A stretch of DNA of 34,444 nt. Source: Bacteroidaceae bacterium (GTDB taxonomy: Bacteria; Bacteroidota; Bacteroidia; Bacteroidales; Bacteroidaceae). Both the position numbers and the translations under genes were made by a program. The notes below the pieces were generated by a model that saw only the letters and a program-made list of their open reading frames with translations, made no database searches and was not told the DNA's origin. Within the stretch, counting starts at the first letter, position 1. Each line of letters begins with the position of its first letter. Of this stretch, positions 19,345-34,226 are shown piece by piece. The stretch is from the NCBI GenBank assembly GCA_017453465.1, contig JAFTEV010000063.1, positions 1 through 34,444 on the forward strand, in the 5' to 3' direction.

Positions 19345-19352
19345 GTAATTTT

Positions 19353-19458
19353 GGTTATAAGAAAGGCGTGCAACCATTCGACTTGTTCATATTCTGGGTA
19401 CCGCCAAGTAACCTTTGCACTAACAAGTATAGAATAGTCCACGCCTATCAACGTGAAC
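19353..19458 (-). promoter_or_regulatory. Structured leader RNA of the BspA-like gene (copy 1)
   Basis: Read on the minus strand: GTTCACG (19458-19452), GGCGTGG (19445-19439), ACTTGTT (19428-19422), an inner hairpin GGTTAC/GTACC (19413-19397), AACAAGT (19387-19381), CACGCC (19370-19365), then CTTTCTTATAACC ending at 19353. The ATG is at 19344. The same order occurs in copy 2 (33619-33716) with a compensatory inner helix. This predicts a three-part stem: outer GGCGTG/CACGCC, middle ACTTGTT/AACAAGT, and an apical hairpin. Function is inferred to be cis control of expression. No protein frame explains the conservation. Confidence 0.72.
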
Positions 19459-19820
19459 TTTCTAATCAACTTGTTCTCGTGCAAGATGTTTGTTACATCC
19501 TTAAAAAACATTGGCGGTGTTTAGAATATGAGAACAAGAGCAGAAAGCTCTATATTTTAATAAGTACGGAATGGGAACACAAACCTTTTAAGTTAATAAA
19601 TAGAATAGTGTTTCCCTTGTGGGCGAGCCGCACCCGTGTGGCTACATCCCGGTGTGTGTCTTTGTACTGTCTGGTTCTTTTAGAAGTTTGTTTTTTTTAG
19701 GGGTTAATACTTGTTTTTGTCTCTGTGGTGCGCTGAATGAGCACCATTGTGTGGTTTTCGCTGCAAAATTACATTAAATTTCGGAAAGAATAAAATAGAT
19801 TGGGGAAAAAGTTATTATGT
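19459..19820. other. Intergenic stretch, no gene seen
   Basis: No convincing coding frame. ACCGCCAA (19400-19407, inside the leader) and TTGGCGGT (19511-19518) are inverse, so the minus-strand leader may extend to about 19520. No clear TAnnTTTG box was found on the minus strand for the BspA operon. Confidence 0.5.
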
Positions 19821-19824
19821 TGCG

Positions 19825-19995
19825 TGCCACTGCGTTGTTGCAATTGGGGCGAAGCAGTCTTGTTGCAGTGGCATAGTTATGTTGTCATGGTGGCAGAGTT
19901 CTCCCGCTGTGGTGGCAGAACTGTGGGGCGGCAGCGGCACAGTTCTGCCAGAAAAGCAGCAATGCAGTGCCGTCGGGGTGGCACTGCATTGCTGC
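19825..19995. repeat. Three consecutive perfect palindromes downstream of pgpA
   Basis: (1) TGCCACTGC 19825-19833 with GCAGTGGCA 19865-19873. (2) TGGCAGAACTGTG 19913-19925 with CACAGTTCTGCCA 19938-19950. (3) GCAGCAATGCAGTGCC 19956-19971 with GGCACTGCATTGCTGC 19980-19995, 16 bp perfect, 8-nt loop. They share the words TGGCAG and CACTGC. No T-run follows on either side, so simple termination is unlikely to be the whole story. Confidence 0.8.
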
Positions 19996-20022
19996 GGTTG
20001 GAGTACTTGTGTGTCGGTGGAT

Positions 20023-20553
20023 TTATAGCAAATCGAGCAGTCCGCTGGCGCGAACTGCGAGCGTGAGGAGCATGGCGTAGAAGCCGGCCAGCAGGTCGTC
20101 GGCCATGCAGCCCCAACCGCCGTGGATGTTCTGGTCCACCCAGCGGCAACCGAGGGGCTTGGTGATGTCGATGATGCGGAAGAGGAGGAAGCCGAGGGTG
20201 GCGAGGGTGACGGCTTGCCACGCGGGGCCATGGAAGAAGCTGACGGCGAGGCAGGCCATCCAGGTGCCGAGGGGTTCGTCGATGACGACGGCTCGCGGGT
20301 CTTCGCCCCAGTAGCGTTCCATCACGTTGGTGGTCCAGATGCCCACGAGGGTGGTGCCGATGAGCAGGGCGAGGGTGGCTATGAGGAGGGCTGTGGGGGA
20401 CAGCACGCTCCAGAGGGCCAGCCAGATGAGCAGAGCCAGGAGGGCTGCATACGTGCCTGGCGCGCCGGGAATGAGTCCTGTGCCCAGGCACGTTGAGAGG
20501 AGAACGTGAAGCCAGGGGGCTTCACCCAGTTGTTTGTTGTTGTTGTTACTCAT
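20023..20553 (-). CDS. pgpA: Phosphatidylglycerophosphatase A (PgpA-like)
   Basis: 176 residues. Removes phosphate from phosphatidylglycerol phosphate to make phosphatidylglycerol in the inner membrane. The family motifs are present: STCLGTGLIPGAPGTYAALL near residues 20-39, DPRAVVIDEPLGTWMACLAV (metal-binding Asp/Glu) near 85-105, FRIIDITKPLGCRWVD near 125-140, and GGWGCMADDLLAGFYA near 145-160. Several transmembrane helices are visible, including ALLALLIWLALWSVLS and LLIATLALLIGTTLVGI. Its start overlaps the end of the upstream permease gene by 8 bp, so it is the last gene of the efflux operon. The link between phospholipid synthesis and efflux is probably transcriptional convenience. Confidence 0.9.
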   Translation of the reverse strand: MSNNNNKQLGEAPWLHVLLSTCLGTGLIPGAPGTYAALLALLIWLALWSVLSPTALLIATLALLIGTTLVGIWTTNVMERYWGEDPRAVVIDEPLGTWMACLAVSFFHGPAWQAVTLATLGFLLFRIIDITKPLGCRWVDQNIHGGWGCMADDLLAGFYAMLLTLAVRASGLLDLL

Positions 20554-21766
20554 GGCGGATGGCTTCGATGGGGTCCATGTTGGCGGCTTTCTGCGCGGGG
20601 ATGTAGCCGAAGAGCACGCCGATGATGACGCAGACGAGGAAGGAGACGTAGATGGACCAGGCTGGTACGCTGGAGGGCATTCCGAAGGCTGGCACTATCC
20701 ACTGGCTGGCACTGATGCCCAGCAGGATGCCGAGCAGTCCGCCCGTCAGCGAGATGATGACGGACTCGATGAGGAACTGGAGGGAGATGACGGCTCCGGT
20801 GGCTCCCACGGCCATGCGCAGGCCGATTTCCTTGGTGCGCTCGGTGACGCTGACCAGCATGATGTTCATGATGCCGATGCCGGCCACGAGCAGGGAGAAG
20901 GCGGCTGCCACGACGAGGATGAGTGTGACGGTGTCCATGGTGGAGGACATGGTCTCCATCATTTCGGCCTGTGAGCGGATGGTGAAGTCGTCTGCTGCTT
21001 CGCCTTTCAGCTTGTGGTTCTCGCGCAGAATCTGTGTGAGTTCCTCGATTGCAGCATCAGAGAGTTCCTCGGTGATGGCCGAGCAGACGATGCTGGAGAA
21101 GTAGGTCTGTGCGGCAATGCGCTTCATGACCGTGGTGTAGGGGGCGATGATGACGTTGTCCTGGTCCATGCCCCAGTTGTTGTAGCCTTTGGACTTCAGC
21201 ACGCCTACGATGCGCATGGGGATGGACTTGAAGCGGATGGTCTTGCCGATGGGGTCTGCGCCCTCGCCGAAGAGTTCGGTGACGATGGTCTTGCCCACGA
21301 CGGCTACTTTGGCTGCCTTGTGCACGTCTTCTTCGGTGAAGCAGTCGCCGCGCTCGATGGTCCACAGCTTGATGTCGAGGTATTCGGGGCTTTCGCCATA
21401 GACGGTGGTGTTGGTGTTGTTGTTGCCGTAGATGACTTGGCCACCCGATGTGACTTCGGGCGAGACATTGGTGACGTATTTCTTTTCAGCCATGATGCGC
21501 TGGTAGTCGGCCATTTTCAGTGTCTGCATACTGGAGGGGTCTTGGCGTACACCGCCACGCATGTCGGCTCCGGGGCGGATGGTCAGCAGGTTGGTGCCCA
21601 TGGTGGAGAGTTCCTTGCGGATGCTTTCTTTCGAGCCTTGTCCGATGGCCATCATGATGATGACGGCTGCCACGCCGATGATGATGCCCAGCATGGAGAG
21701 GAAGGAGCGCATCTTGTTGTTGGCTACAGCGTTGATGCTTACTTTGAAGAGGTTGAGTATGTTCAC
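20546..21766 (-). CDS. MacB-type ABC transporter permease (split form)
   Basis: 406 residues from a GTG start. N-terminal helix after FKVSINAVANNKMRSFLSML (MLGIIIGVAAVIIMMAIGQG) opens the MacB/FtsX family. A periplasmic domain of about 230 residues follows (TNLLTIRPGADMRGGVRQDP to FTIRSQAEMMETMSSTMDTV). Three C-terminal helices complete it: VAAAFSLLVAGIGIMNIMLV, VISLQFLIESVIISLTGGLL, YVSFLVCVIIGVLFGYIPAQ. The motif SVTERTKEIGLRMAVGA contacts the ATPase. The protein ends AANMDPIEAIRHE. Works with the ATPase, MacA-like adaptor and TolC-like channel of the same operon to export a peptide, lipid or drug. In E. coli these two parts are fused; here ATPase and permease are separate genes. The GTG follows a TAATTCC micro-repeat. 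Confidence 0.9.
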   Translation of the reverse strand: MNILNLFKVSINAVANNKMRSFLSMLGIIIGVAAVIIMMAIGQGSKESIRKELSTMGTNLLTIRPGADMRGGVRQDPSSMQTLKMADYQRIMAEKKYVTNVSPEVTSGGQVIYGNNNTNTTVYGESPEYLDIKLWTIERGDCFTEEDVHKAAKVAVVGKTIVTELFGEGADPIGKTIRFKSIPMRIVGVLKSKGYNNWGMDQDNVIIAPYTTVMKRIAAQTYFSSIVCSAITEELSDAAIEELTQILRENHKLKGEAADDFTIRSQAEMMETMSSTMDTVTLILVVAAAFSLLVAGIGIMNIMLVSVTERTKEIGLRMAVGATGAVISLQFLIESVIISLTGGLLGILLGISASQWIVPAFGMPSSVPAWSIYVSFLVCVIIGVLFGYIPAQKAANMDPIEAIRHE

Positions 21767-21789
21767 GGGGAATTAGGAATTAGGAATTA
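21767..21789. repeat. TAATTCC micro-repeat between MacB ATPase and permease
   Basis: Read on the minus strand, the ATPase stop codon TAA is itself the start of three tandem TAATTCC units, followed by CC and the GTG start of the permease. It matches the other post-stop micro-repeats in the window. Confidence 0.75.
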
Positions 21790-22551
21790 GTCATCTTGTG
21801 GTTTGGGCAGTGCTGCCAGTGCTTCGGCTGCCGACTTGATGTTGAGGTTGATGGTGTCTTCGCGAATCTTGCCGTCGCGCAGGTTGATGTTGCGGCTGGA
21901 GTATTCGGCAATCTCAGGGTTGTGGGTGACGAAGATGATGGTGTGTCCCTGCTTGTAGAGTTCCTGGAAGAGCACCAGCATTTCGAATGAAGTGCGTGTG
22001 TCGAGGTTACCCGTCGCTTCGTCGGCCAGCAGCACGGCAGGGTTGTTGACCAGGGCACGGGCAATGGCTACGCGCTGCATCTGTCCGCCCGACATCTGGT
22101 TGCTTTTGTGCTCCAGACGGTCGCCCAGCCCTACGGCCTGGAGTGCCTTGATAGCGGCTTCGCGGCGTTGGCGGGCATTGTACTTGTTGTTGTACATGAG
22201 GGGGAGTTCTACGTTTTCTACGGCTGTGGTCTTGGCCAGCAGGTTGTAGTTCTGGAAGACGAAGCCAATCTTGCGGTTGCGCAGCTTGGCTCGCTGGTTT
22301 TTCGTCATGCGGCGGACGGGCGTTCCGTCCAGGAAGTATTCGCCGCTGGTGGGGGTGTCGAGGCAGCCCAGCTGGTTGAGCAGGGTGGATTTGCCCGAAC
22401 CCGATGTGCCCTGGATGGTCACAAATTCGCCTTCGTATATCTTGAAGCTGACACCGCGCAGGGCTTTCACCGTCTCGCTGCCCACTTGGAAGTAGCGTTT
22501 GACGTTTTGCAGCTCGATGACAACTTTTCGGGAGTCTGTTTGTTCTGGCAT
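21787..22551 (-). CDS. MacB/LolD-type ABC transporter ATP-binding protein
   Basis: 254 residues from ATG at 22551 ([20 protein letters not shown]); an upstream extension of 44 codons overlaps the macA-like gene and is low-complexity, so it was rejected. Walker A is [13 protein letters not shown]-loop FVFQNYNLL, signature [15 protein letters not shown] (Met in place of Leu), Walker [15 protein letters not shown], and H-loop [12 protein letters not shown]. The insert [20 protein letters not shown] is usual for the MacB/LolD group. A 30-residue tail ([20 protein letters not shown]) follows the core. It powers the permease in the next gene; cytoplasmic face of the inner membrane. Confidence 0.93.
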
Positions 22552-22558
22552 AGCGGGT

Positions 22559-23713
22559 TTATTTTTTGTTGTTGTTCTTGTTGTTGCGTGGCTTTGGCAT
22601 GAAGGGGTTGCTGGCTTTTTCTTCTTCCTGCTCTTCACCCTCGTTGATGTTAAACTCGGTGATGACCTTTGTGCCCTCGTCAATGCCGCTCAGAATTTCG
22701 GTCAGCGTGCCGTTGGTAGTGCCAACCTCTACGGCATGAGCCTTGAAGGTATTGCCCTCCAGTGTCCACACTTTGCTGGCGGCTTCGCAGTCCTCGATGG
22801 TCTGGTCTTTGCCCGTGATGGCCTCGTTGGGCATGAAGCGGAGAGCCTTGGTTGGCACGGCCAGCACATTGTTCTTCTCCAGCGTGAAGATGGTCACGTT
22901 GGCGGTGAGTCCGGGTTTCAGCTTCAGGTCGTTGTTGGGGGCAGAGATGACCACTTCGTAGGTCACCACATTGCTTTCGGTTGTGGCTTGCTGACGTACC
23001 TGTGTCACTTCGCCTTCAAAGGTGTCGTCGGGGAAGGCATCTACGGTGAACGAAACGCGCTGCCCCTCAATCACGCCGCCAATGTCGGCTTCGTCAATGT
23101 CGGCAATGACGCGCATGTTGGTCAAGTCTTGGGCGATGATGAACAGGGTAGGGGTGGTCATGGCAGAAGCCACGGTCTGACCCTCTTCCACTTCTTTCGA
23201 CAGCACAACACCGTCGATTGGGGCAGTGATGGTGGCGTAGCCCAGGTTGGTCTGTGCCTTCTGCACGGACTGCTGCTGAACCTGCACGGTCTGTATGGCT
23301 TTCTCGTAGGAAAGCTTGGCACTTTCATAGTCGTTGGCACTGACCAGTCCCTTTTCGTACAGTGTCTTGTAGCGTTCATAGTTGGCTTTTTGGTAAGCCA
23401 AGTCTGACTTGGCATTCGACAGGTTGCTCTGTGCACTGGCCAGTTCGCTCAGCAGGTTGGTCTTGTCCAGCTCGGCAATGACCTGCCCCTTGTGCACTTC
23501 GCTGTTGTAGTCCACATAGATTTTGTCGATGATACCGCTGACCTGCGTACCCACTTCCACTTTGGTCACAGGTTCGATGGTGCCAGTGGCAGTGATGCTG
23601 GTCGAGATGTTTTGCCTTTCGGCAGTGGCTGTGTTGTAGGTTACTTTCGTTTCTTTTGAGCAGGATGCCAATACTGCAATGAAGAGTGCGATGTATAATG
23701 AATGAAGTTTCAT
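22559..23713 (-). CDS. MacA-like periplasmic adaptor (membrane fusion) lipoprotein
   Basis: 384 residues. A lipobox is present (MKLHSLYIALFIAVLASCSK, Cys19), so it is anchored as a lipoprotein. Biotinyl-lipoyl half: TATGTIEPVTKVEVGTQVSG, then DYNSEVHKGQVIAELDKTNL. A long alpha-hairpin lies at about 88-155 (AQSNLSNAKSDLAYQKANYE, YEKGLVSANDYESAKLSYEK). The second half: GYATITAPIDGVVLSKEVEE, GQTVASAMTTPTLFIIAQDL. The beta-barrel and membrane-proximal domains follow; the tail is Glu then Asn/Lys rich. It bridges the permease and the TolC-like channel. It ends 7 bp before the ATPase start; 56 bp separate it from the tolC-like gene. Confidence 0.92.
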   Translation of the reverse strand: MKLHSLYIALFIAVLASCSKETKVTYNTATAERQNISTSITATGTIEPVTKVEVGTQVSGIIDKIYVDYNSEVHKGQVIAELDKTNLLSELASAQSNLSNAKSDLAYQKANYERYKTLYEKGLVSANDYESAKLSYEKAIQTVQVQQQSVQKAQTNLGYATITAPIDGVVLSKEVEEGQTVASAMTTPTLFIIAQDLTNMRVIADIDEADIGGVIEGQRVSFTVDAFPDDTFEGEVTQVRQQATTESNVVTYEVVISAPNNDLKLKPGLTANVTIFTLEKNNVLAVPTKALRFMPNEAITGKDQTIEDCEAASKVWTLEGNTFKAHAVEVGTTNGTLTEILSGIDEGTKVITEFNINEGEEQEEEKASNPFMPKPRNNKNNNKK

Positions 23714-23769
23714 AAGTCGGAAAAATTAAAAGTTATAAGATTAAATGGCTGTTTCCTTATACAAGAATG

Positions 23770-25110
23770 TTAGAATGATAGGTTTTCTCCTGCATAGAAT
23801 TTCAGCAGGGCCTGATTCAGCAAGGCCGTGTATTTGGTTTGCAAGACTTGCTGTTCGGCCTGTAGCAGGTTGTTCTTGCCTGTGGTGAGTTCCACGATGT
23901 TCTTCAGTCCGCAGTTGAATTGCTCGCTGACCAGCCTGTAGCTTTCCTGCATACTCTCTTTGTTCTTCTTGGCATAGACGTATTGCTGCTGCGATGTGGT
24001 GGCATCGAGCCAGTACTTTTCTATCGAACTGTAGAGGGTTTTCTGTTTGTCCTGCAAGGCCAGTTCGTTGGTTTGCTTCGTGAACTTGGCTTTGCGGATG
24101 GCGGTGCGGGTAGAGAGGTTGTCGAAGATGGGCACGGAGAGTGTCAGTCCCAGTGCATTCGACAGGTTTGTCTTGATTTGTGTGCCAAACCCTGTTTGCT
24201 GGCCGCTTGAATTGCTGCTGCCAATGCTGGCTCTCAGGCTCAGCGTGGGCATGTAGCCTGTGCGAGCCGAGCGGATAGACAGGTCTGCGGCCTCAATGCT
24301 TAGCTGGCCTTGCTTGATTTCGGGCCGAGTCTGCAATGCTGACGCATAGACGGCAGATTTTTCAGGGATGAGGCTAAGCACCTCGCTGTCTGTCACGCTG
24401 GGTATGGCCACCTCGAAGTCCTCATCATCATGCAGTTCCAACAGTTGCTTCAGTTGCAGCTTGTAGTTGGCCAGCTGACTTTGGGCATTGACCAGCGAAT
24501 ACTTGTCTTTATCCACTTGTGCCTCCAGCTGCACTTGGTCCACACGGGCCAGACTGCCCACTTCCACCATTGCCTTGGCGCGGTCGGCTTGCAGTTGAGA
24601 TGCCTTCACGATTTCCTCGTTGACATGCACGGCTTCCGTTTCATAGAGAATCTGTACATACAGCTGTGCAATCTTCTCCTGAATGGTGTTGGCCTGTTGT
24701 TCCTCACTCAGTTCGTTGGTTTGCTCTGTCAGTCTGTTCTGCTTGATGGTCATGCGGTTTTTGTTGCCGTTCCACACCGTCCAGTTGGCATTGATGCCAT
24801 ACGAGCCGTTGTAGGTCCATTTTTTCGAGCTGGTTGTCATCGAACCGTTGGTCAGGTCGATGGTCGATTCACTGAACGGACGGTAATTCATGTTTTGGTT
24901 TGTGCTGAACGACACCGACGGAAACAAGGCAGAGCGGCTTTGCAGCACATCCTCATGGCTCTGCTGAGTCTTGATCTGTGCTTGCCGCAGGCTGATGTTG
25001 TTTGCCAGTGCATAATCAATGCACTCCTGCAAGGTCCATGTTTTTGCCGAAGCCATGTTCCCTGTCAGGAGTGCCACTGAAAAAGCGGTGATAAATTGCT
25101 TTCCTTTCAT
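23770..25110 (-). CDS. TolC-family outer-membrane efflux channel
   Basis: 446 residues; start 25110 (MKGKQFITAFSVALLTGNMA) gives a signal peptide, and five upstream codons are dropped. The OEP fold is shown by two similar halves: WTLQECIDYALANNISLRQA and, in the second half, LSIEAADLSIRSARTGYMPT LSLRASIG. Long coiled helices rich in Gln/Glu/Ala fill the rest, for example LEAQVDKDKYSLVNAQSQLA and TKYTALLNQALLKFYAGENL. It is first gene of the efflux operon, followed by the MacA-like adaptor. As a trimer it would form the outer-membrane exit duct. Confidence 0.92.
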   Translation of the reverse strand: MKGKQFITAFSVALLTGNMASAKTWTLQECIDYALANNISLRQAQIKTQQSHEDVLQSRSALFPSVSFSTNQNMNYRPFSESTIDLTNGSMTTSSKKWTYNGSYGINANWTVWNGNKNRMTIKQNRLTEQTNELSEEQQANTIQEKIAQLYVQILYETEAVHVNEEIVKASQLQADRAKAMVEVGSLARVDQVQLEAQVDKDKYSLVNAQSQLANYKLQLKQLLELHDDEDFEVAIPSVTDSEVLSLIPEKSAVYASALQTRPEIKQGQLSIEAADLSIRSARTGYMPTLSLRASIGSSNSSGQQTGFGTQIKTNLSNALGLTLSVPIFDNLSTRTAIRKAKFTKQTNELALQDKQKTLYSSIEKYWLDATTSQQQYVYAKKNKESMQESYRLVSEQFNCGLKNIVELTTGKNNLLQAEQQVLQTKYTALLNQALLKFYAGENLSF

Positions 25111-25207
25111 AAATATATAAATCAAAAAAACTTTCTCAAGCTTAGACTTTCATGTCACATCGCAGGTTTAATCCCTCTGTGCGTGAAAAGAATGTTAAAA
25201 AAGAAAA

Positions 25208-25620
25208 GGAAGCAGTCGGGCTATAAGCCGGGTTCTGTAAGACTTCTTCAATCGCAGAAATACATCTTGCCGAAAGTTTCAGTCCTGTTCGTCATTTATC
25301 CACGACGTGTGTCACCACACGCCTCCAGCGTTCTACCCTCTACCTCGGGCGGGCTACCCTCAAACGGCAGTTTACATGAACTTGCAGCTCCCAAGGTGCA
25401 CAGCCAGTGTGTCACCACACTGCTGGTGGGCTCTTGCCCCACCTTCTCACCCTTACCCTGCACACAGAGACAAGTATGCGGGGCGGTTGTTTTCTTCTGC
25501 ACTACTCAACCCTCGCGGACTGCTTCTACATTAGGAAGTGGGATGCCCTGTGCTGCCCGGACTTTCCTCTCCCTCCGCACGGAATGTGCATCGGCAGCGA
25601 CGAACCGTCCGACTGCTTCC
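25208..25620 (-). ncRNA. rnpB: RNase P RNA (class A)
   Basis: On the minus strand the 5' end GGAAGCAGTC (from 25620) pairs with the 3' end GACTGCTTCC (to 25208), forming helix P1. The conserved core is present at both ends: GAGGAAAGTCCGGGC near the 5' end (about 25570-25556) and AGAACCCGGCTTA near the 3' end (about 25236-25223). The length of about 413 nt fits bacterial type A RNA. The 3' end runs into TTTTCTTTTTT, which can terminate transcription. It matures tRNA 5' ends with the RnpA protein. Confidence 0.95.
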
Positions 25621-25626
25621 AAGGCG

Positions 25627-25656
25627 CAAAGGTACGATTTTTTGTTGAGATACAAA
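25627..25656 (-). promoter_or_regulatory. Promoter of rnpB
   Basis: Minus-strand TTTG (25656-25653), 18 bp, TACCTTTG (25634-25627), with the RNA 5' end 7 bp further on. It fits the Bacteroidetes consensus and lies in the gap after the GH51 stop. Confidence 0.82.
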
Positions 25657-25679
25657 GCCTTTGACCTTTACTTTTTTCT

Positions 25680-28160
25680 TTATTTCTGCTTCTTGCCCTT
25701 CTTCTGAATGCGCAGAATGGCCACGGTGTAGCCGGGCAAGTCGAGTTTTGTGGATTTGTCGATGTTGACCGTCCGGGTCTCGTTGGTGTCCCACTGGCGC
25801 TTGCTGTTGGGGTTGTTGGCGCAGCTGAGCAGGGTGAGTTGAGCCGTCGGGCTGTACTGGGCTGGGTCGAAGTCTGGGCCGAGGTTCAGCGTGACGGTGT
25901 TCTGCTTGTCAACGACACTGACCAGCTTGACGATGATGTCGCCCGTCTTGGAGTCGATGACCACGGAGTTCCTGACGCGCAGGTCGAGGTCGTCCGGCTC
26001 GTAGATGTCATCGTAGCCAATGTATTTTGCCTCCAGCTTGGAATACACATACTCATCGCCAGCATTCTGGCCAAAGGCACGGTGCACAAAGTAGTTGCAA
26101 GTGGGCTTCAGCTTTGTGCCTGTGAAGTAAATCATGTCGGGATTCCAGTTGGTGTGTCCCTCTCTGGCCAGCAGCGGGGCATAGCTCGACATCACTACTA
26201 CGTCCGCATTGCGCTCCACGTTGGTCAGGTAGAGAGCCTCCACCAGTGCATTGGTGATGTAGTTGCCCTTCGATGCCCATTCGCCCAGATAGACTTTTGT
26301 GCCCGTGCGCGAATAGTTGTCGTAGTAGTCCTGGTGGTGGAAGTACCAGCCAGGCGTGTTGTAGTAGTGTTCATCCACAATCTCAATGCCGTGTTCCTTG
26401 GCGTACTTCCAGCCATATTCATAATCGCTGCCTTCCCAGAAGGGGCCTACTGTGCCAACGACGGTAATTTCTGGATGTGCCTTCTTCACGCCGTCAATGA
26501 GGTAGAAGTAACGCTCCTTGAAGGTGTCGCTGATGAGGTCCTCGTTGCCAATGCCCAGATACTTCAGGTTGAAAGGCTTGGGGTGGCCAGCTTCGGCACG
26601 CAGACGTGCCAGCGGGCTGGTTTTGGCATCGCCGTTGGCCCATTCGATGAGGTCGAGCAGTTCTTGCAGGTAGCTTTCCATCGTCAGCGGCTTTCCATTA
26701 TATATATAAGGTGAAGGCTTTCCGTTCAGGTCTTTTTCAAAGGGAATGCCGCCTTGCTGTCCGTTGCCGCCACGCCATGAGTTCTGGCAGGGCACACCGG
26801 CAGCCAGCACGGGCAGTGGCTCGGCACCGATGTCCTCGCAATACTGGAAGTATTCGTAGAAGCCCAGTCCGCGTGACTGGTGGTAGTTCCAGATGTTCAT
26901 GTCGGGCTGGCGTTCCCACAGCGGGCCGATGGTGGCCTGCCAGTGGTAGATGTTGTCAATGCCCTGTCCGTGGGAGGCACAGCCGCCGGGGAAGCGGACA
27001 AAGCGCGGGTGCAGGTCGGCAATCATTTCGGCCAGGTCACGGCGCAGCCCATTCTTGTGACCCTTGTAAGTATCTTGCGGGAAAAGGCTGACGAAGTCGA
27101 TGTCCACCTCTCCGGCTTTTAGTGGTTCAATGACGAGTGCTGCCTTGTCTGCGTTGGCCTTGGGCGTGAGCACGGCTTTCAGCTGTTGCCAGTTCTTCTG
27201 GTTGGTAGAGAACGTGGTCTCGGCCAAGGTCTGGCCGTCGGCACGCAGACTGACGCGCACCTTGTTTGTGCCGCGCAGGAAGAAGCTGAAGTCGTATTTC
27301 GCTCCCTGTTTCAGGGGAATGCCGTCGAAGCCCTCGTTCAGAAGCAAGGCTCCGGGCTGGGTCGTATGGAGCTGGACGTAGTGTTTGTTGTTAGAGTGGA
27401 TGGGGTCGGCGGTGTTGATGCTCCATTCCGCCCCGCTGCCCTCCAGTCGCCACGCCGTCTGAGCGTTCCAGCCCTTGTGGTCGTCGCCCGTATATTCAAA
27501 GTCGCGGTTCTGCACCAGTTCGGCATAGAGTCCGCCGTCAGCGGCATAGCTGATGTCCTCGAAGAAGATGCCGTAGAGGTTGGGACTGATGGCCTTGCGG
27601 TCGCTGAGGTCCACGTCAATGGTCGTGACGAACTCCTTGGCCAGTTTCGAGACCTTGTCGCTGCTGATGATGTTCTCGCGCTCGTCTGCTGCATTCTGCT
27701 GGGCCAGCTTTGCACGCTGGAGCAAGCCTTCAAGGTCACGGTAGGGAATACGCAGCACGTTCTGCTTGCTGACTTTTGCCAGCTTTTCTTTTTCAGCTTC
27801 AAACCGTGCTGCGGGTAGTGTGGGGTAGTCCTGTGGTTTCCAGAGCACAAGATTTTCCGACTCGGTAATGGCCACTTGTGGATTCTTGGGACTGGGGATA
27901 AACTCGGCGTAGTATTTCTTGCCATCGTAGCGCAGCACCACAGAGTGCAGCTTCTTCTCGCTGCCCCAGGGACCGTAGTCGCTGCTGAAGATGGTGTAGG
28001 GGATGTGTGTCCAGTGCTTCTGGTCTATGGAGTAGTCCAGTTGCAGGGGCATGGTGCCTTCTTTATAGGAAGGACGGATATAGACGGAGTCGGGATTATT
28101 GCCGCCAGCCATCATGCTTGCAGCGAAAAGGCTGTGAAGAAGGAACAATTTGATTTTCAT
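25680..28160 (-). CDS. Alpha-L-arabinofuranosidase, GH51 (large form)
   Basis: 826 residues with a signal peptide (MKIKLFLLHSLFAASMMAGG). Residues about 20-165 are an N-terminal beta domain (IDQKHWTHIPYTIFSSDYGP, FIPSPKNPQVAITESENLVL). A family core starts near 175 with ISPNLYGIFFEDISYAADGG LYAELVQNRDFEY. A carbohydrate-binding segment follows at about 230-350. The catalytic barrel has FVRFPGGCASHG near 390, acid/base Glu540 in YLGIGNEDL, and nucleophile Glu627 in KVYLGEWASKGN. The spacing of 87 residues fits the large plant-like subgroup. The C-terminal beta-sandwich ends at KKGKKQK. It removes arabinose side chains from arabinan, arabinoxylan or rhamnogalacturonan I. The nearby PL11 lyase gene on the other strand points to pectin side chains. 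The upstream lipoprotein gene is 20 bp away, likely the same operon. Confidence 0.92.
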   Translation of the reverse strand: MKIKLFLLHSLFAASMMAGGNNPDSVYIRPSYKEGTMPLQLDYSIDQKHWTHIPYTIFSSDYGPWGSEKKLHSVVLRYDGKKYYAEFIPSPKNPQVAITESENLVLWKPQDYPTLPAARFEAEKEKLAKVSKQNVLRIPYRDLEGLLQRAKLAQQNAADERENIISSDKVSKLAKEFVTTIDVDLSDRKAISPNLYGIFFEDISYAADGGLYAELVQNRDFEYTGDDHKGWNAQTAWRLEGSGAEWSINTADPIHSNNKHYVQLHTTQPGALLLNEGFDGIPLKQGAKYDFSFFLRGTNKVRVSLRADGQTLAETTFSTNQKNWQQLKAVLTPKANADKAALVIEPLKAGEVDIDFVSLFPQDTYKGHKNGLRRDLAEMIADLHPRFVRFPGGCASHGQGIDNIYHWQATIGPLWERQPDMNIWNYHQSRGLGFYEYFQYCEDIGAEPLPVLAAGVPCQNSWRGGNGQQGGIPFEKDLNGKPSPYIYNGKPLTMESYLQELLDLIEWANGDAKTSPLARLRAEAGHPKPFNLKYLGIGNEDLISDTFKERYFYLIDGVKKAHPEITVVGTVGPFWEGSDYEYGWKYAKEHGIEIVDEHYYNTPGWYFHHQDYYDNYSRTGTKVYLGEWASKGNYITNALVEALYLTNVERNADVVVMSSYAPLLAREGHTNWNPDMIYFTGTKLKPTCNYFVHRAFGQNAGDEYVYSKLEAKYIGYDDIYEPDDLDLRVRNSVVIDSKTGDIIVKLVSVVDKQNTVTLNLGPDFDPAQYSPTAQLTLLSCANNPNSKRQWDTNETRTVNIDKSTKLDLPGYTVAILRIQKKGKKQK

Positions 28161-28180
28161 GGTTCTTGCGGTTTTTACGT

Positions 28181-28609
28181 TTATTCTATTACATTAAACG
28201 TGCAGTTGATACTTCCCATGGATGATGGGTCAAGATAGGGACTATCCCCTGCGTATGCAGCCATCATCTTGCCAGAAACAGTCAGCGTGAATGTGCCCAC
28301 AGAGTCGGGAGCCTTGAAGGTTTCGCTGAACGAATTGACTGGAGCATAGCGAGCCGTTTCGCCCGAAAGGAGAGTCTTGCCGTTCAGTCCTGTGACGGCG
28401 TACTTGTAGGTGCCGCCAATGTTCTCGCCGACCTCCTTGAACGTCACGGTGTAGGAAACGTCGGCACCCTTCTGGTAAGAAGCCGCATTGGTGACAACCT
28501 TGTCAAACGTGGGGGTGGTCGATGTACTCTTTTTTTCTGAGCAGCTGGTCATCAGCATGGTGGTGCTTAAAAGCATGGCCAAAGCCGCCGTTTGTTTCGT
28601 TTTTTCCAT
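28181..28609 (-). CDS. Small surface-type lipoprotein
   Basis: 142 residues. Lipobox at LMTSC (Cys23) after MEKTKQTAALAMLLSTTMLM. The mature part is a single beta-sandwich-like domain: ASYQKGADVSYTVTFKEVGE, KYAVTGLNGKTLLSGETARY, SVGTFTLTVSGKMM. It resembles an immunoglobulin-like fold, but no family is recognised. The first gene of the arabinofuranosidase unit; it could bind sugar or be an accessory for the enzyme (guess). Confidence 0.7.
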   Translation of the reverse strand: MEKTKQTAALAMLLSTTMLMTSCSEKKSTSTTPTFDKVVTNAASYQKGADVSYTVTFKEVGENIGGTYKYAVTGLNGKTLLSGETARYAPVNSFSETFKAPDSVGTFTLTVSGKMMAAYAGDSPYLDPSSMGSINCTFNVIE

Positions 28610-28641
28610 AATAATCAGTGTGAAAGTTTGCTTTTGATGGA

Positions 28642-28649
28642 CAAAGTTA
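28642..28649 (-). promoter_or_regulatory. -7 box for the lipoprotein/GH51 unit
   Basis: Minus-strand TAACTTTG, 32 bp before the ATG at 28609. No good -33 TTTG at normal spacing. It is back-to-back with the plus-strand promoter of ribE. Confidence 0.55.
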
Positions 28650-28679
28650 TTGCTTTTTAATGAAAAAAAGGTAACTTTG
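28649..28679 (+). promoter_or_regulatory. Promoter of ribE
   Basis: TAACTTTG at 28672-28679, with ATTG at 28649-28652 as a weak -33 box 19 bp upstream. The leader to the ATG at 28725 is about 40 nt, too short for an FMN riboswitch, and none of its motifs was seen. Confidence 0.7.
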
Positions 28680-28724
28680 CGGCAAAATTAACACAATTAA
28701 AACGGATTTTAGCCAATTAGCATT

Positions 28725-29327
28725 ATGTTTAGCGGAATCGTAGAAGAGTTTGCAACGGTCGTTGCCATAGAGAAAGACCAAGAGAACATGCACTTCACCC
28801 TGACCTGTTCCTTTGTGGACGAGTTGAAGATAGACCAGAGCGTGGCCCACAACGGCGTGTGCCTCACCGTCGTAAAGATTTCGGACGGCAAGTATGTTGT
28901 CACAGCCATGAAGGAAACGCTCCTGAAGTCCAACCTGGGACTCCTGAAGGTGGGCGACAAAGTAAACGTAGAGCGTTCCATGCTGATGAACGGTCGGCTG
29001 GACGGCCACATCGTGCAGGGGCATGTTGACCAGACAGCCGTCTGCACCGACGTGCAAGACCAGCAGGGTTCCTACACCTACACCTTCCACTACACCTTCG
29101 ACAAGGAAATGGCTCGCAAGGGCTACCTCACCGTGGACAAGGGCAGCGTCACCGTCAACGGCGTGAGCCTCACCGTGTGCAACAGCCAGGACGATTCCTT
29201 CCAGGTAAACATCATCCCCTACACCTACGAAAACACCAACTTCCACCAGATTCAGGTTGGCACCAAGGTCAACCTGGAGTTTGACATCATCGGGAAATAC
29301 ATAGCACGATTACAAACTATTAACTAA
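28725..29327 (+). CDS. ribE: Riboflavin synthase alpha subunit
   Basis: 200 residues, usual length. Joins two 6,7-dimethyl-8-ribityllumazine molecules to give riboflavin. Two homologous barrels are visible: MFSGIVEEFATVVAIEKDQE with SVAHNGVCLTVVKI, and LDGHIVQGHVDQTAVCTDVQ with KGSVTVNGVSLTVCNSQDD. The lumazine-binding motifs are GIVEE, NGVCLTV, GHIVQGHVD and NGVSLTV. It ends 13 bp before the rhamnogalacturonan lyase on the same strand, without a clear terminator between. Confidence 0.96.
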   Translation: MFSGIVEEFATVVAIEKDQENMHFTLTCSFVDELKIDQSVAHNGVCLTVVKISDGKYVVTAMKETLLKSNLGLLKVGDKVNVERSMLMNGRLDGHIVQGHVDQTAVCTDVQDQQGSYTYTFHYTFDKEMARKGYLTVDKGSVTVNGVSLTVCNSQDDSFQVNIIPYTYENTNFHQIQVGTKVNLEFDIIGKYIARLQTIN

Positions 29328-29340
29328 CCCTTTTTTCATT

Positions 29341-32300
29341 ATGAAGAAAACCCTATTAACCTTCTCCATGCTCCTGCTGGCCATGGCTGGCAAGGCACAG
29401 AGTGCCAGTGTGACATGGAGCCTGAGCGACAAGGACAACCTGAGCCAGGCAGAAGTGACAGGCGAAACCAACAACCTGTCGAACAGTTTCACGCTGGGCA
29501 GCAACATCGGGGCTACAGCCACCATGACCGGAACAAACGCCGACGAGGGCTATACTGCCGTGAGCTACGACCCCTCCTTCACCACCTTTACACCCACGAC
29601 ACGTGCTACAGGCAAGACTGCCGGACACTGCATCGAGCTGAGCGTAACCTCGCAGACGGGCCACACCTTCAAGCCCACCACCATTGCCTTCGATGCAGCC
29701 AAGGTAGGCACCGACGGCGGAAAGGTGGATGTCTATTACCAAGTGGGCACAGGCACAGAGACAGCCATTGCCACAGGGCTCTCTCCCCTGCGCAACAAGA
29801 TTACCGCTTCCAACTCCACGGGCTACACCCACTATGAGTACAGCCTCGGCGATGTCATTGCCAAGGGGCAGGCCTTCCGACTCTACCTTTATATATATGA
29901 GTTGAACGGAACAGACAACGCCAACCCCAAGGCCATTGGCTTCCGCAATGTCAGCATCACTGGAGCCGTGGATGAAAAGATTTTCGACGTGAGCCAATTC
30001 GTCTCGGCCTTCACCTGCCAAGGGAAGACTTCTGCCGACGGCCCTGCTGAAATCGACCTCTTCGACCTGACCAAGGAACTGAAGAACGGCGGCCTGGCCA
30101 CCTACGGCACGAAGCTCTACGGCGACCCCACCGACTTCAATGTGGTCTGCAACGACGGCTACACCGCCACCGTGGATTACTCTGGCCATGTTGCCATCGT
30201 GAAGATATACAACGAAAAGGAACAGGTGTTCTACTTTGAAACCCTCTTCACCGTAACCAATCGTCAGCCCAAGCCGGCAGCCACTCCGCTGAAGCGCGGA
30301 CTCATGGCCGTGAGCCTTTCGGGGGCTGGCATGGGCAACGGAAACCTTGTCAGCTGGCGGCACCGCGAGGCCGACGGCACAGGCGTGAAGTATAAGCTCT
30401 ACTATGGCTCTTCGACCAATCCATCCATCAAACTGAACAGCGGCAAGTACATTACCGACAAGACCAACTTCCTCCACACCTCTGGCACAGCCAACCACCG
30501 CTACAAGCTGGAGGTCTATGACAAGTATGGCAACCTGCTCGAAACAGAGATTTCCGAAAAGGCTTGGGCCAACCAGACGAAGACCATCAAGACTTCCACT
30601 CCACCAAATTCAGCCGAAGGTGCTACCTATACGCCCAACGATGCCAGCTTCTGCGACATGGACGGCGACGGCGAATACGAAATCATCCTCAAGTGGTCGC
30701 CCTCCAACGAGAAGGATGCTGCCAGCAGCGGCACAACCTCAGAGGTCATCTTCGACTGCTACAAGCTCGACGGCACGCAGCTCTGGCGCATCCACATGGG
30801 TCCCAACTTCTTCACCAGTGCACACACCATCCAGTTCATTGCATGGGACTTCGACGGCGACGGCTACGGCGAATTTATGTGCAAGACAGGCCCTGGCACC
30901 ATCGACGGCGAGGGCAATTACGTGATTATGAATGGCGACGACCCCACAGCCAACTGGCTCAACAGCCGTGGCAAGCAAGTGGAAGGTCCCGAATACATCA
31001 CGGTCTTCGACGGCATGACGGGTGCAGAACTCTCCACCATTCCCTATCACACCAACTATGCAGCTGGTTCAAACTACTGGGGCGACAGCAACCAGAACCG
31101 TTCTGAACGCTACCTCGCAGCCATCGCCTGGCTCGACGGTGCCGACAAGAACCCCAGCCCCATCTTTGCCCGTGGCTACTACAGCGGAGCCTTTGTCGGT
31201 GCTTACGACTGGGACGGCGTGCAGCTGAAGGAGCGTTGGGTCAGCCGCAACACCACCAAGGGACAGGGACTCTGGGGCGAAGGTGCGCACTGGATTTCTG
31301 TCGGCGACTGCGACGGTGACGGCAAGCAGGAAATCGTCTATGGTTCAGCAGCCCTCGACGACGACGGCAGTCTGCTCTACCGCACAGGTCTTGGCCATGG
31401 CGACGCGCTCCACCTGGGCGACCTCATCCCGGAGCGCGAGGGCATGGAACTCTTCATGGTACACGAGGAAAAGCCTTACGGCTACGACCTGCGCGATGCC
31501 AAGACGGGTGAACGTCTGCTCTACAAGACTGCTGGCAGCGACACAGGCCGTGGGTTGGCTGCCCACTTCGACTCTTCTTCTCCCCACTCGCAGTTCCTCT
31601 ACAGTGCAGCCGCAGGCATGTACGATTGTCTCGACGGCTCTGAGATAGCCCCCACTTGGGCCATTGGCAGCAGCGGTGCTGGCATCAATAACCGCATCTA
31701 CTGGGACGGCGACCTCTACGACGAGTTCTTCGACAAGAGCATCATTGCCCACTGGAACCCCACAGGCAAATACTTCGACCGCTACAAGTTCAACAACGGC
31801 AACTACGTCTGGGGCAAACTCAACAACAGCAGCAAGAACAACCCCTGTGTGCTGGGCGACCTCCTTGGCGACTGGCGCGAGGAAATCGTCACATGGAACG
31901 AAAGTGACAAGTCTCTCTACATCTGCGCCACCAGCTACACCACGGACTACCGCATCCCGCACCTGATGGACGACCTCAACTACCGTGCTCAAGTCATCAA
32001 CCAGAACTGCGCCTACAACCAGCCGCCTCACCTCTCGTTTGACCCCGCTGTGAAGTATGCCGGCAACCCCAACCAGGCTGTGCAGGAAGACCTCGAACCA
32101 GAGCCGGAACCAGAGCCACAGCCCGAAATCACATGGACGGAGAAGTACAAGATTGACTTCGAGGACGGCGACTACAGCATGTTCACCTTCAACGCCACCA
32201 AAGACGTGACACAGAGCATCGTCACCGAGGCCAATGGCACCAACTCTTACGAAATCTACACAACCGCCACTCGCACCGTGAATCTCGACCTCTCGCAGGT

Positions 32301-32928
32301 GGGCCTGGGCCAGTACGACCTCTACAAGTTTGAGTTCGACTGGGCAACAGGCGGTTCCAATACCGACCCCTCTACACTCACCGTGAAGGCCGACAACGCC
32401 GAGGGTCAGTTGCTCACTGTCAGCATTCCGCAGGGCTGGGCCACCATCGCCATGACCAGCGGAACCGACACCTTGGCCACTTACTACAATGCCCGTCCGC
32501 TCTCCACGCCCACCTCGCTGTTCCACTTCCAGTTTGTGGGTGGCGACGAAGGCGTATATCTCACAGTCACCAAGGATGAAACCATCTACGTTGACAGCGT
32601 GAAGATTTACGACACAGCCGCCCGCGTCACAGGCATCAACGAAGTGCTCGGTCGCAGCTACAACCACACCGTCTTCGACAACATCCAGTTCAGCACCTAT
32701 CAGGCCGAGACACCGCAGCCCGAACCCCTCCTGGGCGACCTCGATGGCGACGGTCACATCACCATCGGAGACATCACCCTCCTCATCAGCATCTACCTTG
32801 GCGACACACCCGACGTACCCCTCGCTGGTAGTGCAGACCTCGACGGCGACCAGCTGATTACCATCCAAGATGTCACTCAGCTCATCGAAATCTACCTGAA
32901 CGCCAATCCCGAACCAACGCAGGAATAG
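29341..32928 (+). CDS. Rhamnogalacturonan lyase (PL11-type) with dockerin-like C-terminus
   Basis: 1195 residues with signal peptide MKKTLLTFSMLLLAMAGKAQ. Residues about 20-205 are a beta-sandwich resembling a carbohydrate-binding unit. The PL11 catalytic part, about 308-915, is marked by KRGLMAVSLSGAGMGNGNLV SWRHRE at its start, then calcium-type loops DMDGDGEYE, DFDGDGYGE, GDCDGDGKQE, KTGPGTIDGEG and GDLLGDWREEIV, as in YesW/YesX eight-bladed propeller lyases. A PEPEPEPQPE linker (about 918-928) leads to a second beta domain (about 930-1125) and a complete dockerin-like pair: DLDGDGHITIGDITLLISIY and DLDGDQLITIQDVTQLIEIY (about 1131-1188). It cuts the rhamnose-galacturonate backbone of pectin. 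Together with GH51 it suggests RG-I and arabinan use. Gene order, directly after ribE, is unusual. Confidence 0.9.
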   Translation: MKKTLLTFSMLLLAMAGKAQSASVTWSLSDKDNLSQAEVTGETNNLSNSFTLGSNIGATATMTGTNADEGYTAVSYDPSFTTFTPTTRATGKTAGHCIELSVTSQTGHTFKPTTIAFDAAKVGTDGGKVDVYYQVGTGTETAIATGLSPLRNKITASNSTGYTHYEYSLGDVIAKGQAFRLYLYIYELNGTDNANPKAIGFRNVSITGAVDEKIFDVSQFVSAFTCQGKTSADGPAEIDLFDLTKELKNGGLATYGTKLYGDPTDFNVVCNDGYTATVDYSGHVAIVKIYNEKEQVFYFETLFTVTNRQPKPAATPLKRGLMAVSLSGAGMGNGNLVSWRHREADGTGVKYKLYYGSSTNPSIKLNSGKYITDKTNFLHTSGTANHRYKLEVYDKYGNLLETEISEKAWANQTKTIKTSTPPNSAEGATYTPNDASFCDMDGDGEYEIILKWSPSNEKDAASSGTTSEVIFDCYKLDGTQLWRIHMGPNFFTSAHTIQFIAWDFDGDGYGEFMCKTGPGTIDGEGNYVIMNGDDPTANWLNSRGKQVEGPEYITVFDGMTGAELSTIPYHTNYAAGSNYWGDSNQNRSERYLAAIAWLDGADKNPSPIFARGYYSGAFVGAYDWDGVQLKERWVSRNTTKGQGLWGEGAHWISVGDCDGDGKQEIVYGSAALDDDGSLLYRTGLGHGDALHLGDLIPEREGMELFMVHEEKPYGYDLRDAKTGERLLYKTAGSDTGRGLAAHFDSSSPHSQFLYSAAAGMYDCLDGSEIAPTWAIGSSGAGINNRIYWDGDLYDEFFDKSIIAHWNPTGKYFDRYKFNNGNYVWGKLNNSSKNNPCVLGDLLGDWREEIVTWNESDKSLYICATSYTTDYRIPHLMDDLNYRAQVINQNCAYNQPPHLSFDPAVKYAGNPNQAVQEDLEPEPEPEPQPEITWTEKYKIDFEDGDYSMFTFNATKDVTQSIVTEANGTNSYEIYTTATRTVNLDLSQVGLGQYDLYKFEFDWATGGSNTDPSTLTVKADNAEGQLLTVSIPQGWATIAMTSGTDTLATYYNARPLSTPTSLFHFQFVGGDEGVYLTVTKDETIYVDSVKIYDTAARVTGINEVLGRSYNHTVFDNIQFSTYQAETPQPEPLLGDLDGDGHITIGDITLLISIYLGDTPDVPLAGSADLDGDQLITIQDVTQLIEIYLNANPEPTQE

Positions 32929-32955
32929 CCCCTGACGCATACAAACAGAACGTCA

Positions 32956-33001
32956 GCAAAGACCACAAGTGGGGAGCCACATCCCCGTCTGTGGTCTTTG
33001 C
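32956..33001 (+). terminator. Terminator-like hairpin after the lyase
   Basis: GCAAAGACCACA (32956-32967) pairs perfectly with TGTGGTCTTTGC (32990-33001); an inner GGGGA/TCCCC extends the fold. The following tract is TTGTTC, weak in T. It lies 28 bp after the stop. Confidence 0.75.
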
Positions 33002-33446
33002 TTGTTCTCAGCCCTCAATTGGCCAAAGCAAACTGCACTGCGGTGATACCCTGACAGAGCTACATTCCAAACCTCACAGAAGAACAAAATTGCCAGTTTT
33101 GAGAAGCAAAACCACTCACGTCCGCAATGAAAGTTGACGCAACGGCGTTGTTTGTAAAAACAATGAGCGTTGTTTTCAAAAACAACGCCGTCGTTTATAA
33201 AAACAACGCCGTTGCGTCAACTTTTCTTGCCTACCAGAAAAAGAACGGATGGAAGCAATGCCAAAAAACACTCTCAATCAGGCTGAAGAAGCATCCCTGT
33301 CGGCGGCGGGCGGCACAGTTTTCCCTGAAGCAAATAGAGTTTTGGACACAGAGAAACAGAGGTGTCGGGGCAGTGAGGCAAACAACATAAATCTCAGTGC
33401 CTCTGTGTCTTTGTGTTTGGGTTTATTCAAAAAAAACTCCACATAA
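33002..33446. other. Intergenic stretch with a large palindrome, no gene
   Basis: An open frame at 33127-33390 is produced by the palindrome and has no domain, so it is not called. The palindrome is listed separately. A short GAGGCA/TGCCTC pair around 33375-33405 is the only other structure seen. Confidence 0.6.
33130..33224. repeat. 95-bp nested palindrome built from a GCGTTGTTT unit
   Basis: A 24-bp outer inverted repeat is perfect (33130-33153 with 33201-33224; left arm begins AAAGTTGACGCAACGGCGTT). Inside it lies a second perfect pair, GCGTTGTTTT (33167-33176) with AAAACAACGC (33179-33188), 2-nt loop. The core word AACGGCGTTGTTT or its reverse occurs four times. On a single strand it would form a cruciform or a hairpin in hairpin. 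Confidence 0.85.
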
Positions 33447-33478
33447 TTTGTTTCTTTGTCTTCTTTTCCTTACCTTTG
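33447..33478 (+). promoter_or_regulatory. Promoter of the second BspA-like gene
   Basis: TTTG 33447-33450, 20 bp, TACCTTTG 33471-33478. The ATG is 325 bp downstream, so the transcript has a leader of about 320 nt. Confidence 0.75.
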
Positions 33479-33618
33479 CCGCTGAATTTAAAAACATTTT
33501 GCCTATGGTATAAAACAACAAAACGAACTTAAAGACATATATAACGGAGCGTTAGCTTTTTGCCCTGTAATCTTGGAATCTGCAAATTCAAAGCCACTAA
33601 GGGACATAAAGATGTAAC

Positions 33619-33716
33619 GTTCACGCTCGTTGGGCGTGGGCTTATACTTTATTTAGTGGCAGGTATTGCAGAACCTCAAGATACGATAAAGTCGGTTCCA
33701 CGCCTTTGTTATATCC
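33619..33716 (+). promoter_or_regulatory. Structured leader RNA of the BspA-like gene (copy 2)
   Basis: In order: GTTCACG 33619-33625, GGCGTGG 33633-33639, ACTTTAT 33646-33652, TTAGTGGC, hairpin AGGT/ACCT (33661-33664 with 33673-33676), ATAAAGT 33686-33692, CCACGCC 33698-33704, and TTTGTTATATCC to 33716. GGCGTGG pairs with CCACGCC (7 bp) and ACTTTAT with ATAAAGT (7 bp). Copy 1 (19353-19458) has the same layout with a changed but paired middle helix. It lies 87 nt upstream of the ATG, versus 8 nt in copy 1. Confidence 0.72.
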
Positions 33717-33803: not shown

Positions 33804-34226
33804 ATGAAAAAAATTTTGTCTTTCCTTATCGCTCTATTGGCAACCTTCCCTCTCCACGCAGCCGATGGCGATGTGTTTACCGCCACTATAAACGGCGGCA
33901 TCAGTATGACATTCAAAGTGCTGAACGAAAGTCTGCAAACTATACAAGTGGGGAATGGAAGTTATGCCTGTATCCCTAAATCAACAATAGGAGCAATTAC
34001 TATTCCTGGCACCATAAAGAAAAATGGGACTAATTATTATTATAAGGTCACAAGCATAGGAGAAAATGCCTTCGCACACTGTAGCGGCTTGACCTCGGTA
34101 ACGATTCCAAGCGGCGTGACAGCCATCGGAAGTTATGCCTTCAATAACTGTAGCGGTTTGATTTCAATAACGATTCCAAGCGGCGTGACAGCCATCGAAA
34201 GATCTGCCTTCTCTGGCTGTATTTAG
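33804..34226 (+). CDS. BspA-like leucine-rich-repeat protein, short (probably truncated)
   Basis: 140 residues with signal peptide MKKILSFLIALLATFPLHAA. The N-terminal strand region (DGDVFTATINGGISMTFKVL) is the usual opening of these proteins and parallels the 17512-19344 protein. Two near-identical LRR_5 units follow (HCSGLTSVTIPSGVTAIGSY AF and NCSGLISITIPSGVTAIERS AF) whose DNA copies are 69 bp apart (28-bp identical cores at 34101 and 34170). The frame then stops within FSGCI, where another unit would be expected, and the C-terminal YNLQGVR...GIYIVNGKKV tag is absent. It is therefore either a deletion remnant or a minimal adhesin; without the tag, surface display is doubtful. Confidence 0.7.
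   Translation: MKKILSFLIALLATFPLHAADGDVFTATINGGISMTFKVLNESLQTIQVGNGSYACIPKSTIGAITIPGTIKKNGTNYYYKVTSIGENAFAHCSGLTSVTIPSGVTAIGSYAFNNCSGLISITIPSGVTAIERSAFSGCI

Follow-up and report, generated by a model that had tools for sequence, protein, structure and literature searches.

A large and apparently undescribed family of structured RNAs occupies the 5' leaders of genes for signal-peptide proteins in Bacteroidia, and on balance it seems to control the transcription of these secreted or surface-protein genes by attenuation. Two of its copies lie in the window analysed here, the 34,444-nucleotide (nt) stretch at positions 1 to 34,444 of contig JAFTEV010000063.1 (assembly GCA_017453465.1, a Bacteroidaceae bacterium), where copy 1 (19353-19458, minus strand) and copy 2 (33619-33716, plus strand) each precede a BspA-like gene. 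A first-pass annotation had described both as one covarying leader RNA. The evidence comprises a long nested arm kept by covariation, a competing helix set followed by a U-run and, in one class of copies, an upstream reading frame that stops almost as soon as it starts.

A covarying leader RNA and the genes it precedes

Further copies in the source genome and its relatives were found by short sequence patterns, nine of whose matches were deemed chance by eye and excluded (L011, L013, L015, L017, L021, L022, L023, L025 and L027). Model R1 was built on 12 copies with hairpin X as its only paired part and the rest as sequence, and model R2 adds helix A; both were searched within genomes of the phylum. 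In the window R1 recovers two of its own 12 seeds, copy 1 at 19358-19463 on the minus strand (83.9 bits) and copy 2 at 33614-33711 on the plus strand (67.1 bits). At E<=1e-3 it matches 37 of the 45 genomes of the genus. The source genome holds 15 such matches (one interrupted copy accounts for two of them, and a contig end truncates another), and the element is therefore not a product of chance. At E<=1e-4, R1 is found in 160 of 301 genomes and 21 of 30 genera of the family. A sample of the phylum gave 10 of 345 genomes, the source genome included, with the other nine from two families, here f12 and f13; R2, run on a different genome sample of the class, reached 78 of 395 genomes and 48 of 197 genera. 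A pattern scan of named genomes yielded at least 115 stretches, and among the matches listed (80 of those stretches) are Prevotella disiens, Hoylesella buccalis, Paraprevotella clara, Muribaculaceae and many metagenome-assembled genomes (MAGs) from the rumen.

For counting, 105 R1 matches on 100 fetched stretches (366,692 bases) were joined by 42 profile matches in stretches L156-L196, giving 147. One match without flank was set aside and five were removed, namely three antisense echoes of counted copies, recognized by their coordinates (L144 1425-, L137 1424-, L101 2076+), and the two halves of the interrupted copy. The remaining 141 were thinned on shared 7-mers to 117, which a regular expression split into 86 class B and 31 class A copies; after L061 was reassigned by hand to class A, the alignments A7 and A8 held 85 class B and 32 class A copies. 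Copy 2 belongs to class B and copy 1 to class A. Stretches L197-L205, in which a regular-expression script matched nothing, were read by position.

From 5' to 3' the core, about 170-195 nt long, consists of hairpin P0, E, A, D, E', hairpin X, C, D', A', C', BF' and a U-run, with the A' strand inside a GGY...RCC element that forms the short helix K. Covariation maintains helices A, D, X and K, the first three of which build one long nested arm. These four are paired in 94.0% of cells in class B, compared with 36-52% when strands are slid against each other, and show 410 both-side changes where shuffling gives 126.7 (standard deviation, sd, 12.5). The corresponding class A values are 88.9% versus 32-47%, and 138 changes versus 58.0 (sd 6.4). 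Since R1 held no A, D or K pairs, the covariation of these helices is independent of the search. The signal is strongest in the long-range helix A and in helix D, whose pairs rank as the top eight (class B) and top four (class A) in a structure-free scan of all column pairs. The A and D strands of the same copy pair with a mean energy of -34.0 kcal/mol, those of different copies with -20.2 and those with one strand shuffled with -17.7; a copy's own A/D pairing beats at least 95% of 25 swaps in 109 of 117 copies. Helix E and the long helix C+BF are also kept, being paired in 89.3% (class B) and 93.7% (class A) of cells versus 41-54% slid. Own, swapped and shuffled energies run -13.4/-12.0/-9.3 for E, -9.7/-7.9/-6.9 for G, -23.9/-19.5/-11.2 for C+BF and -16.6/-15.5/-6.5 for X, own and swapped values lying closer together because conserved strands pair with any partner. 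Helix G (the strand before X with the strand after it), seen by eye and in folds, is not claimed because its own and swapped energies are so close.

Selected RNA structure in a 5' leader, proposed from two copies, is thus borne out by strong covariation over 85 and 32 aligned copies. The placement agrees: the nearest downstream open reading frame (ORF) of at least 60 amino acids (aa), under the overlap rule of the script, shares the strand of the RNA in 105 of 109 copies, eight more copies having none, and the same-strand gene starts a median of 46 nt past the end of the match. The annotation had named a lack of covariation and random placement relative to genes as grounds for abandoning the idea, and neither was found when both were checked. 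Coordination of BspA-family proteins in particular, also suggested there, did not survive the wider sample. Pfam searches with the first 420 aa of each of 104 downstream proteins gave LRR_5 in 23, Big_2 in 5, Por_Secre_tail in 4 and dockerin in 4, other families appearing in one or two members each and some of them being non-secreted (PIF1-like helicase, DNA methylase, band 7). A BspA-specific element is ruled out by this, and the element instead goes with signal-peptide proteins in general. By a simple rule, 91 of the 104 same-strand ORFs starting within 400 nt look signal-peptide-bearing; at a limit of at least 100 aa the proportion is 90 of 101 downstream, compared with 98 of 272 other ORFs of the same stretches. 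Named genomes contributed 63 extra non-redundant copies, and of the 59 ORFs downstream of these, 50 resemble signal-peptide proteins.

Seven loci of f13, outside the family, were read by eye. Five have a SusC-type-receptor-like ORF 225-314 nt downstream and a sixth has one at 491 nt, while the seventh is followed at 137 nt by an ORF of another kind. At four of the seven, XRE-like proteins are encoded divergently upstream. A look-alike on contig C38 of the source genome (L004, G000:C38) and copy L127 likewise by eye precede small XRE-like genes.

Competing helices and a start-stop reading frame

Helices A, D and X are mutually nested, as are E and C+BF, and the two sets cross. Their sharpest conflict is over one strand, GGCGTGG, which serves both X and BF; both helices are nearly always predicted to be pairable (for X partly because the search selected for it). 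The first-pass annotation had seen the outer helix GGCGTGG/CCACGCC, which is indeed present in both copies, and had overlooked its competition with the local hairpin X (GTTCACG/CGTGGRC) for that strand. In 115 of 117 copies a U-run, meaning six or more T within nine bases, follows BF'; random windows scored alike have one in 8 of 174. By sequence and pairing, then, a hairpin followed by a U-run stands before the gene, and by prediction it is mutually exclusive with an antiterminator-type hairpin, X against BF. We infer that the two helix sets act as antiterminator and terminator, though the pairing counts would equally suit a single pseudoknotted fold in which either X or BF is chosen. With A, D and X formed, the terminator strand would be free and the polymerase would read on; with E and C+BF formed, transcription would stop before the gene. 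Folded separately, the first set has a mean energy of -58.4 kcal/mol and the second of -51.0.

Upstream of the arm, TAnnTTTG boxes, which we take to be the -7 box of a Bacteroidetes promoter type, lie between -200 and -80 of X in 44 of 117 copies, compared with 6.8 (sd 2.5) expected, and 34 of the 47 class B boxes in the range -200 to -60 fall at -160 to -130. In class B, 78 of 85 leaders contain a TGCCTATG-like motif whose median position is -109, about 110 nt before X. Its ATG is followed by 0, 1, 2, 3 or 4 sense codons in 18, 42, 16, 1 and 1 copies, that is, by at most two codons and then a stop in 76 of the 78. A stop falls within three codons of 77 of the 78 motif ATGs; the other two frames give 7 and 21, other ATGs of the same leaders 58 of 259, and shuffling 30%. 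A stricter form of the motif has a stop within two codons in 70 of 72 cases versus 27 of 174 elsewhere on the stretches, with TAA used 50 times and TAG and TGA 11 times each. Among 63 new copies, 17 lack the motif and the 46 that have it all stop within two codons, while their other frames stop within three codons in 3 and 14 cases; the copy L208, from another Bacteroidales family, reads ATG ATA TAA. In 36 copies a box lies no more than 70 nt before the ATG, and in 33 of these 23-48 nt separate the two. A transcript map of Bacteroides gives a 5' untranslated region of 23 nt for most mRNAs (PMC7366714).

Judged from these sequence comparisons, the frame of the mini-ORF is selected and it is therefore probably translated. 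Ribosomes would start at the class B mini-ORF, and the start-stop event would either be part of the input to the switch or keep the front end of the leader occupied, the outcome being common control over a large part of the secretome. A further helix, H, suspected by eye between TGCCTATG and CGTAGACG, was dropped, being absent from the 22 helices printed by a de novo scan and in conflict with helix A over two bases. At three f13 loci (L199, L200 and L205) a TGCCTATG-like motif with an early stop was seen by eye downstream of the RNA, before the receptor-like gene, and not upstream.

Attenuation and its alternatives

Several observations weigh against attenuation as set out above. The separate folds favour the antiterminated form by a mean of 7.3 kcal/mol, and the terminated form is the lower one in only 4 of 117 copies, so that switching would call for a factor or for kinetics. 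A single pseudoknotted fold could accommodate the helices together, save for X against BF and a few minor overlaps. Covariation of the terminator set is weak, with 22 both-side changes versus 10.4 shuffled in class B and 27 versus 11.5 in class A. The near-universal pairing of X is partly ascertainment, as the seed pattern and R1 contained it, and the shuffle tests are inflated by relatedness among copies. Below the top ranks of the structure-free scan, base pairs are the minority: 25 of 70 and 17 of 70 column pairs exceed 80% standard pairs, against a background of about 13%. The promoter-type box is not confined to one place, being enriched also in the next stretch upstream (28 of 115 versus 6.1). 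As to the mini-ORF, a leader ORF precedes the switch in class B only, none being seen by eye in class A, copy 1 included. In copy 2 its stop ends at 33513, 49 nt before the 5' strand of helix E (33563), so that it neither overlaps nor abuts the first switching strand and is too far away to mask helix E directly.

The account that overlaps most with attenuation is a classical riboswitch, in which the A/D/K/X arm would bind a small molecule and set the terminator. This is possible but far from probable, and it does not exclude attenuation. The conserved stretches around GGY...RCC next to a competing terminator-like helix would suit it, as would its several copies per genome, a trait of some riboswitches, yet the downstream genes share secretion and not a metabolic pathway, and helices A and D vary freely. 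Control of translation, the first-pass suggestion, or of mRNA stability, where the long arm or the 3' helix would hide or free the start region, survives as a rather unlikely rival. The block of copy 1 does end 8 nt before the ATG (19353 versus 19344), and in many class A copies the ATG lies 3-30 nt past the match end; in class B, however, that distance is typically 25-100 nt, and a U-run kept in nearly every copy is unneeded for such control. The U-run and the competing hairpin point at least as much to transcription attenuation.

It is improbable that the element is a separate small RNA which has a promoter and terminator of its own and precedes genes by chance, or which acts in trans as a by-product of attenuation. 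The seven f13 loci speak for this reading, as the RNA there (by eye) begins shortly after a TAnnTTTG-like box and finishes with a U-run, and the nearest following same-strand ORF of 70 aa or more starts 137-314 nt away; the usual short distance to a same-strand gene, by contrast, leaves little room for a second promoter. Comparable antitermination logic is known for surface polysaccharide operons, and a strong default fold favouring read-through would fit an RNA that acts on RNA polymerase itself, whether by antitermination of the put or EAR type or by loading a specialised NusG-like factor. Such an RNA would leave the conserved competing terminator strand unexplained, and its likelihood seems equally low. 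A mobile repeat or recombination site is disfavoured to the point of being scarcely credible. Up to 15 matches occur in a genome, 9 of 141 copies have weakly matching halves and one copy is associated with an integrase element, but orientation and distance to genes are fixed, compensatory changes are present, and a search with one class B copy found no match in phage or plasmid collections.

The two copies and their relation to known RNAs

In copy 2 (all plus strand) a -7 box, TACCTTTG, is read from the sequence at 33471-33478, a distance at which TAnnTTTG is enriched in class B, and the mini-ORF ATG GTA TAA lies at 33505-33513. Hairpin P0 (33547-33558) is supported by sequence reading and folds; helices A and D are supported by covariation as well. 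The 5' strand of A (ATCTTG..TCTGCAA, 33570-33585) pairs with 33666-33682, and that of D (GCCACTAA, 33593-33600) with TTAGTGGC at 33653-33660. Hairpin X, GTTCACG...CGTGGGC (33619-33641), is the antiterminator-type arm, 99.3% of X cells being paired in class B. Helix C joins ACTTTAT (33646-33652) to ATAAAGT (33686-33692), and the terminator-like 3' strand of BF, CCACGCC, with the U-run TTTGTTATA occupies 33698-33713. The BspA-like ORF that follows (33804-34226, 140 aa) matches LRR_5 at E 5.3e-19. About 240 nt upstream of the -7 box lies an inverted repeat (33124-33230) with 38-nt arms, 89% complementary and 31 nt apart.

Copy 1 (all minus strand) has the 5' strand of A (CATATTCT..ACCGCCAA) at 19511-19530 with its partner at 19388-19407, helix E as CTTGTTCTC (19538-19530) with GAGAACAAG (19478-19470), helix D as TTGCAC (19484-19479) with GTGCAA (19420-19415), hairpin X, GTTCACG...CGTGGAC, at 19437-19458, helix C as ACTTGTT (19428-19422) with AACAAGT (19387-19381), and the 3' strand of BF, GAATGGTT..CACGCC, followed by TTTCTTATA, at 19356-19379. 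The BspA-like gene after it extends from the likely ATG at 19344 to 17512 (LRR_5 E 4.4e-49 for 17512-19377). An in-frame ATG at 19377, inside the RNA, begins the longest ORF and could mislead annotations into a false N-terminal extension; in several class A copies an ATG within the RNA likewise starts the longest downstream ORF. Many class A leaders also have, by eye, an extra conserved stretch further upstream (about 19573-19648, minus strand, in the window), featuring a hairpin around GCACGGGTGC, and GGGAACAC may pair there with GTGTTCCC.

The blocks GTTCACG, GGCGTGG and CACGCCTTTnTTATA of the first description are found in both copies where it placed them, and the middle helix, C, differs between the copies as it said. 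The element is larger than described, and two of its parts were assigned differently: the true 5' start is hairpin P0, upstream of the start first given by about 90 nt in copy 1 and 70 nt in copy 2, the TAGTG motif belongs to the 3' strand of helix D, and the region of the supposed apical hairpin contains the 3' strand of the long-range helix A, whose partner lies upstream. Folded alone, the described blocks are modestly better than shuffles (z -2.85 and -1.72); much of the element lies upstream of them.

Some copies are irregular. Partial copies of equal length and score occupy bases 1-90 of contigs C1 and C52 of the source genome (G000), at contig ends, and the true copy number there may therefore exceed the count. 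The interrupted copy (L333, G000:C15:500-9800) is split within the A' strand by an insert of about 8.9 kb encoding a phage-type integrase (Phage_integrase E 1.8e-24) and a DUF5681 protein, with TTGGCGATA at both junctions. The nine copies whose 5' and 3' halves match poorly, with an own A/D duplex weaker than -26 kcal/mol (L069, L090, L096, L109, L120, L147, L160, L161 and L176), each have a better-fitting half in some other copy; recombination between copies or MAG misassembly at the conserved core is possible.

In line with the first-pass annotation, which knew of no named family matching the element, none in Rfam 15 reaches its gathering score on the core. At gathering the whole window gives RNase P and two tRNAs, all away from the element, and the copy 2 region gives zero matches even at E<=10. 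Nine loci of f12 and f13 gave five matches, none on the element, and eight further loci gave 12, none at gathering score. Two of these 12 touch the element, Atu_C9 at L136 on the same strand (16.7 bits versus 40 needed, E 1.6) and CrcZ at L058 on the opposite strand (17.5 bits versus 95 needed, E 0.69). A known Rfam RNA, Flavo-1 and 6S-flavo (RF01685) included, is ruled out by these searches of the copy 2 region and the sampled loci. The RNAs reported from the phylum by Weinberg in 2010, among them 6S-flavo, Bacteroid-trp, Bacteroidales-1, Bacteroides-1 and Flavo-1, are structured as well, and the core matched none of those that carry an Rfam number; the comparison covers numbered RNAs, leaving aside Bacteroides-2 and GUCCY-hairpin, listed there without one (PMC2864571). 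Computed candidate RNAs of gut bacteria, some upstream of genes and some predicted terminators, include HMP2_1032, which lies near tonB in Bacteroidetes, and none of the candidates compared here is placed before BspA genes (PMC8040213). Literature searches turned up no description of the element, and an unnamed candidate among the 3161 in the supplements of that study may overlap it (PMC8040213).

The trp and his attenuators, which act on transcription through the ribosome, share with the element a 5' leader, competing helices, a terminator-like 3' hairpin with a U-run and, in class B, a short upstream reading frame. Unlike theirs, this frame has 0-2 codons, lacks a run of regulatory codons, ends 49 nt short of the first switching strand in copy 2 and was not seen by eye in class A, and the genes mostly encode signal-peptide proteins instead of biosynthesis enzymes. 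Terminator-controlling riboswitches likewise combine a large covarying fold before a conditional terminator with several copies per genome; the element differs in having freely varying arms, no known ligand and no pathway logic among its genes. Start-stop ORFs mapped by ribosome profiling in E. coli and Campylobacter jejuni also stop at once or one to two codons after the start and may have regulatory functions, but they are described as scattered sites (PMC11955535), whereas the mini-ORF, known here from sequence, is fixed in a structured leader in many copies and several genera.

The coordination of the very large surface and secreted protein repertoires of Bacteroidota is little understood, and a leader RNA shared by 160 genomes of one family and 48 genera of the class offers a directly testable common control point. 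Tentatively, one ancient class of RNA switch may run a large share of the secretome across Bacteroidia and, in Bacteroidales, may read the state of translation through a dedicated mini-ORF of 0-2 codons, conserved only in its frame and immediate stop. The mini-ORF is a rare case in which selection on a reading frame is visible although almost nothing is encoded, and it opens the role of start-stop ORFs in bacterial gene control to comparison and to small changes.

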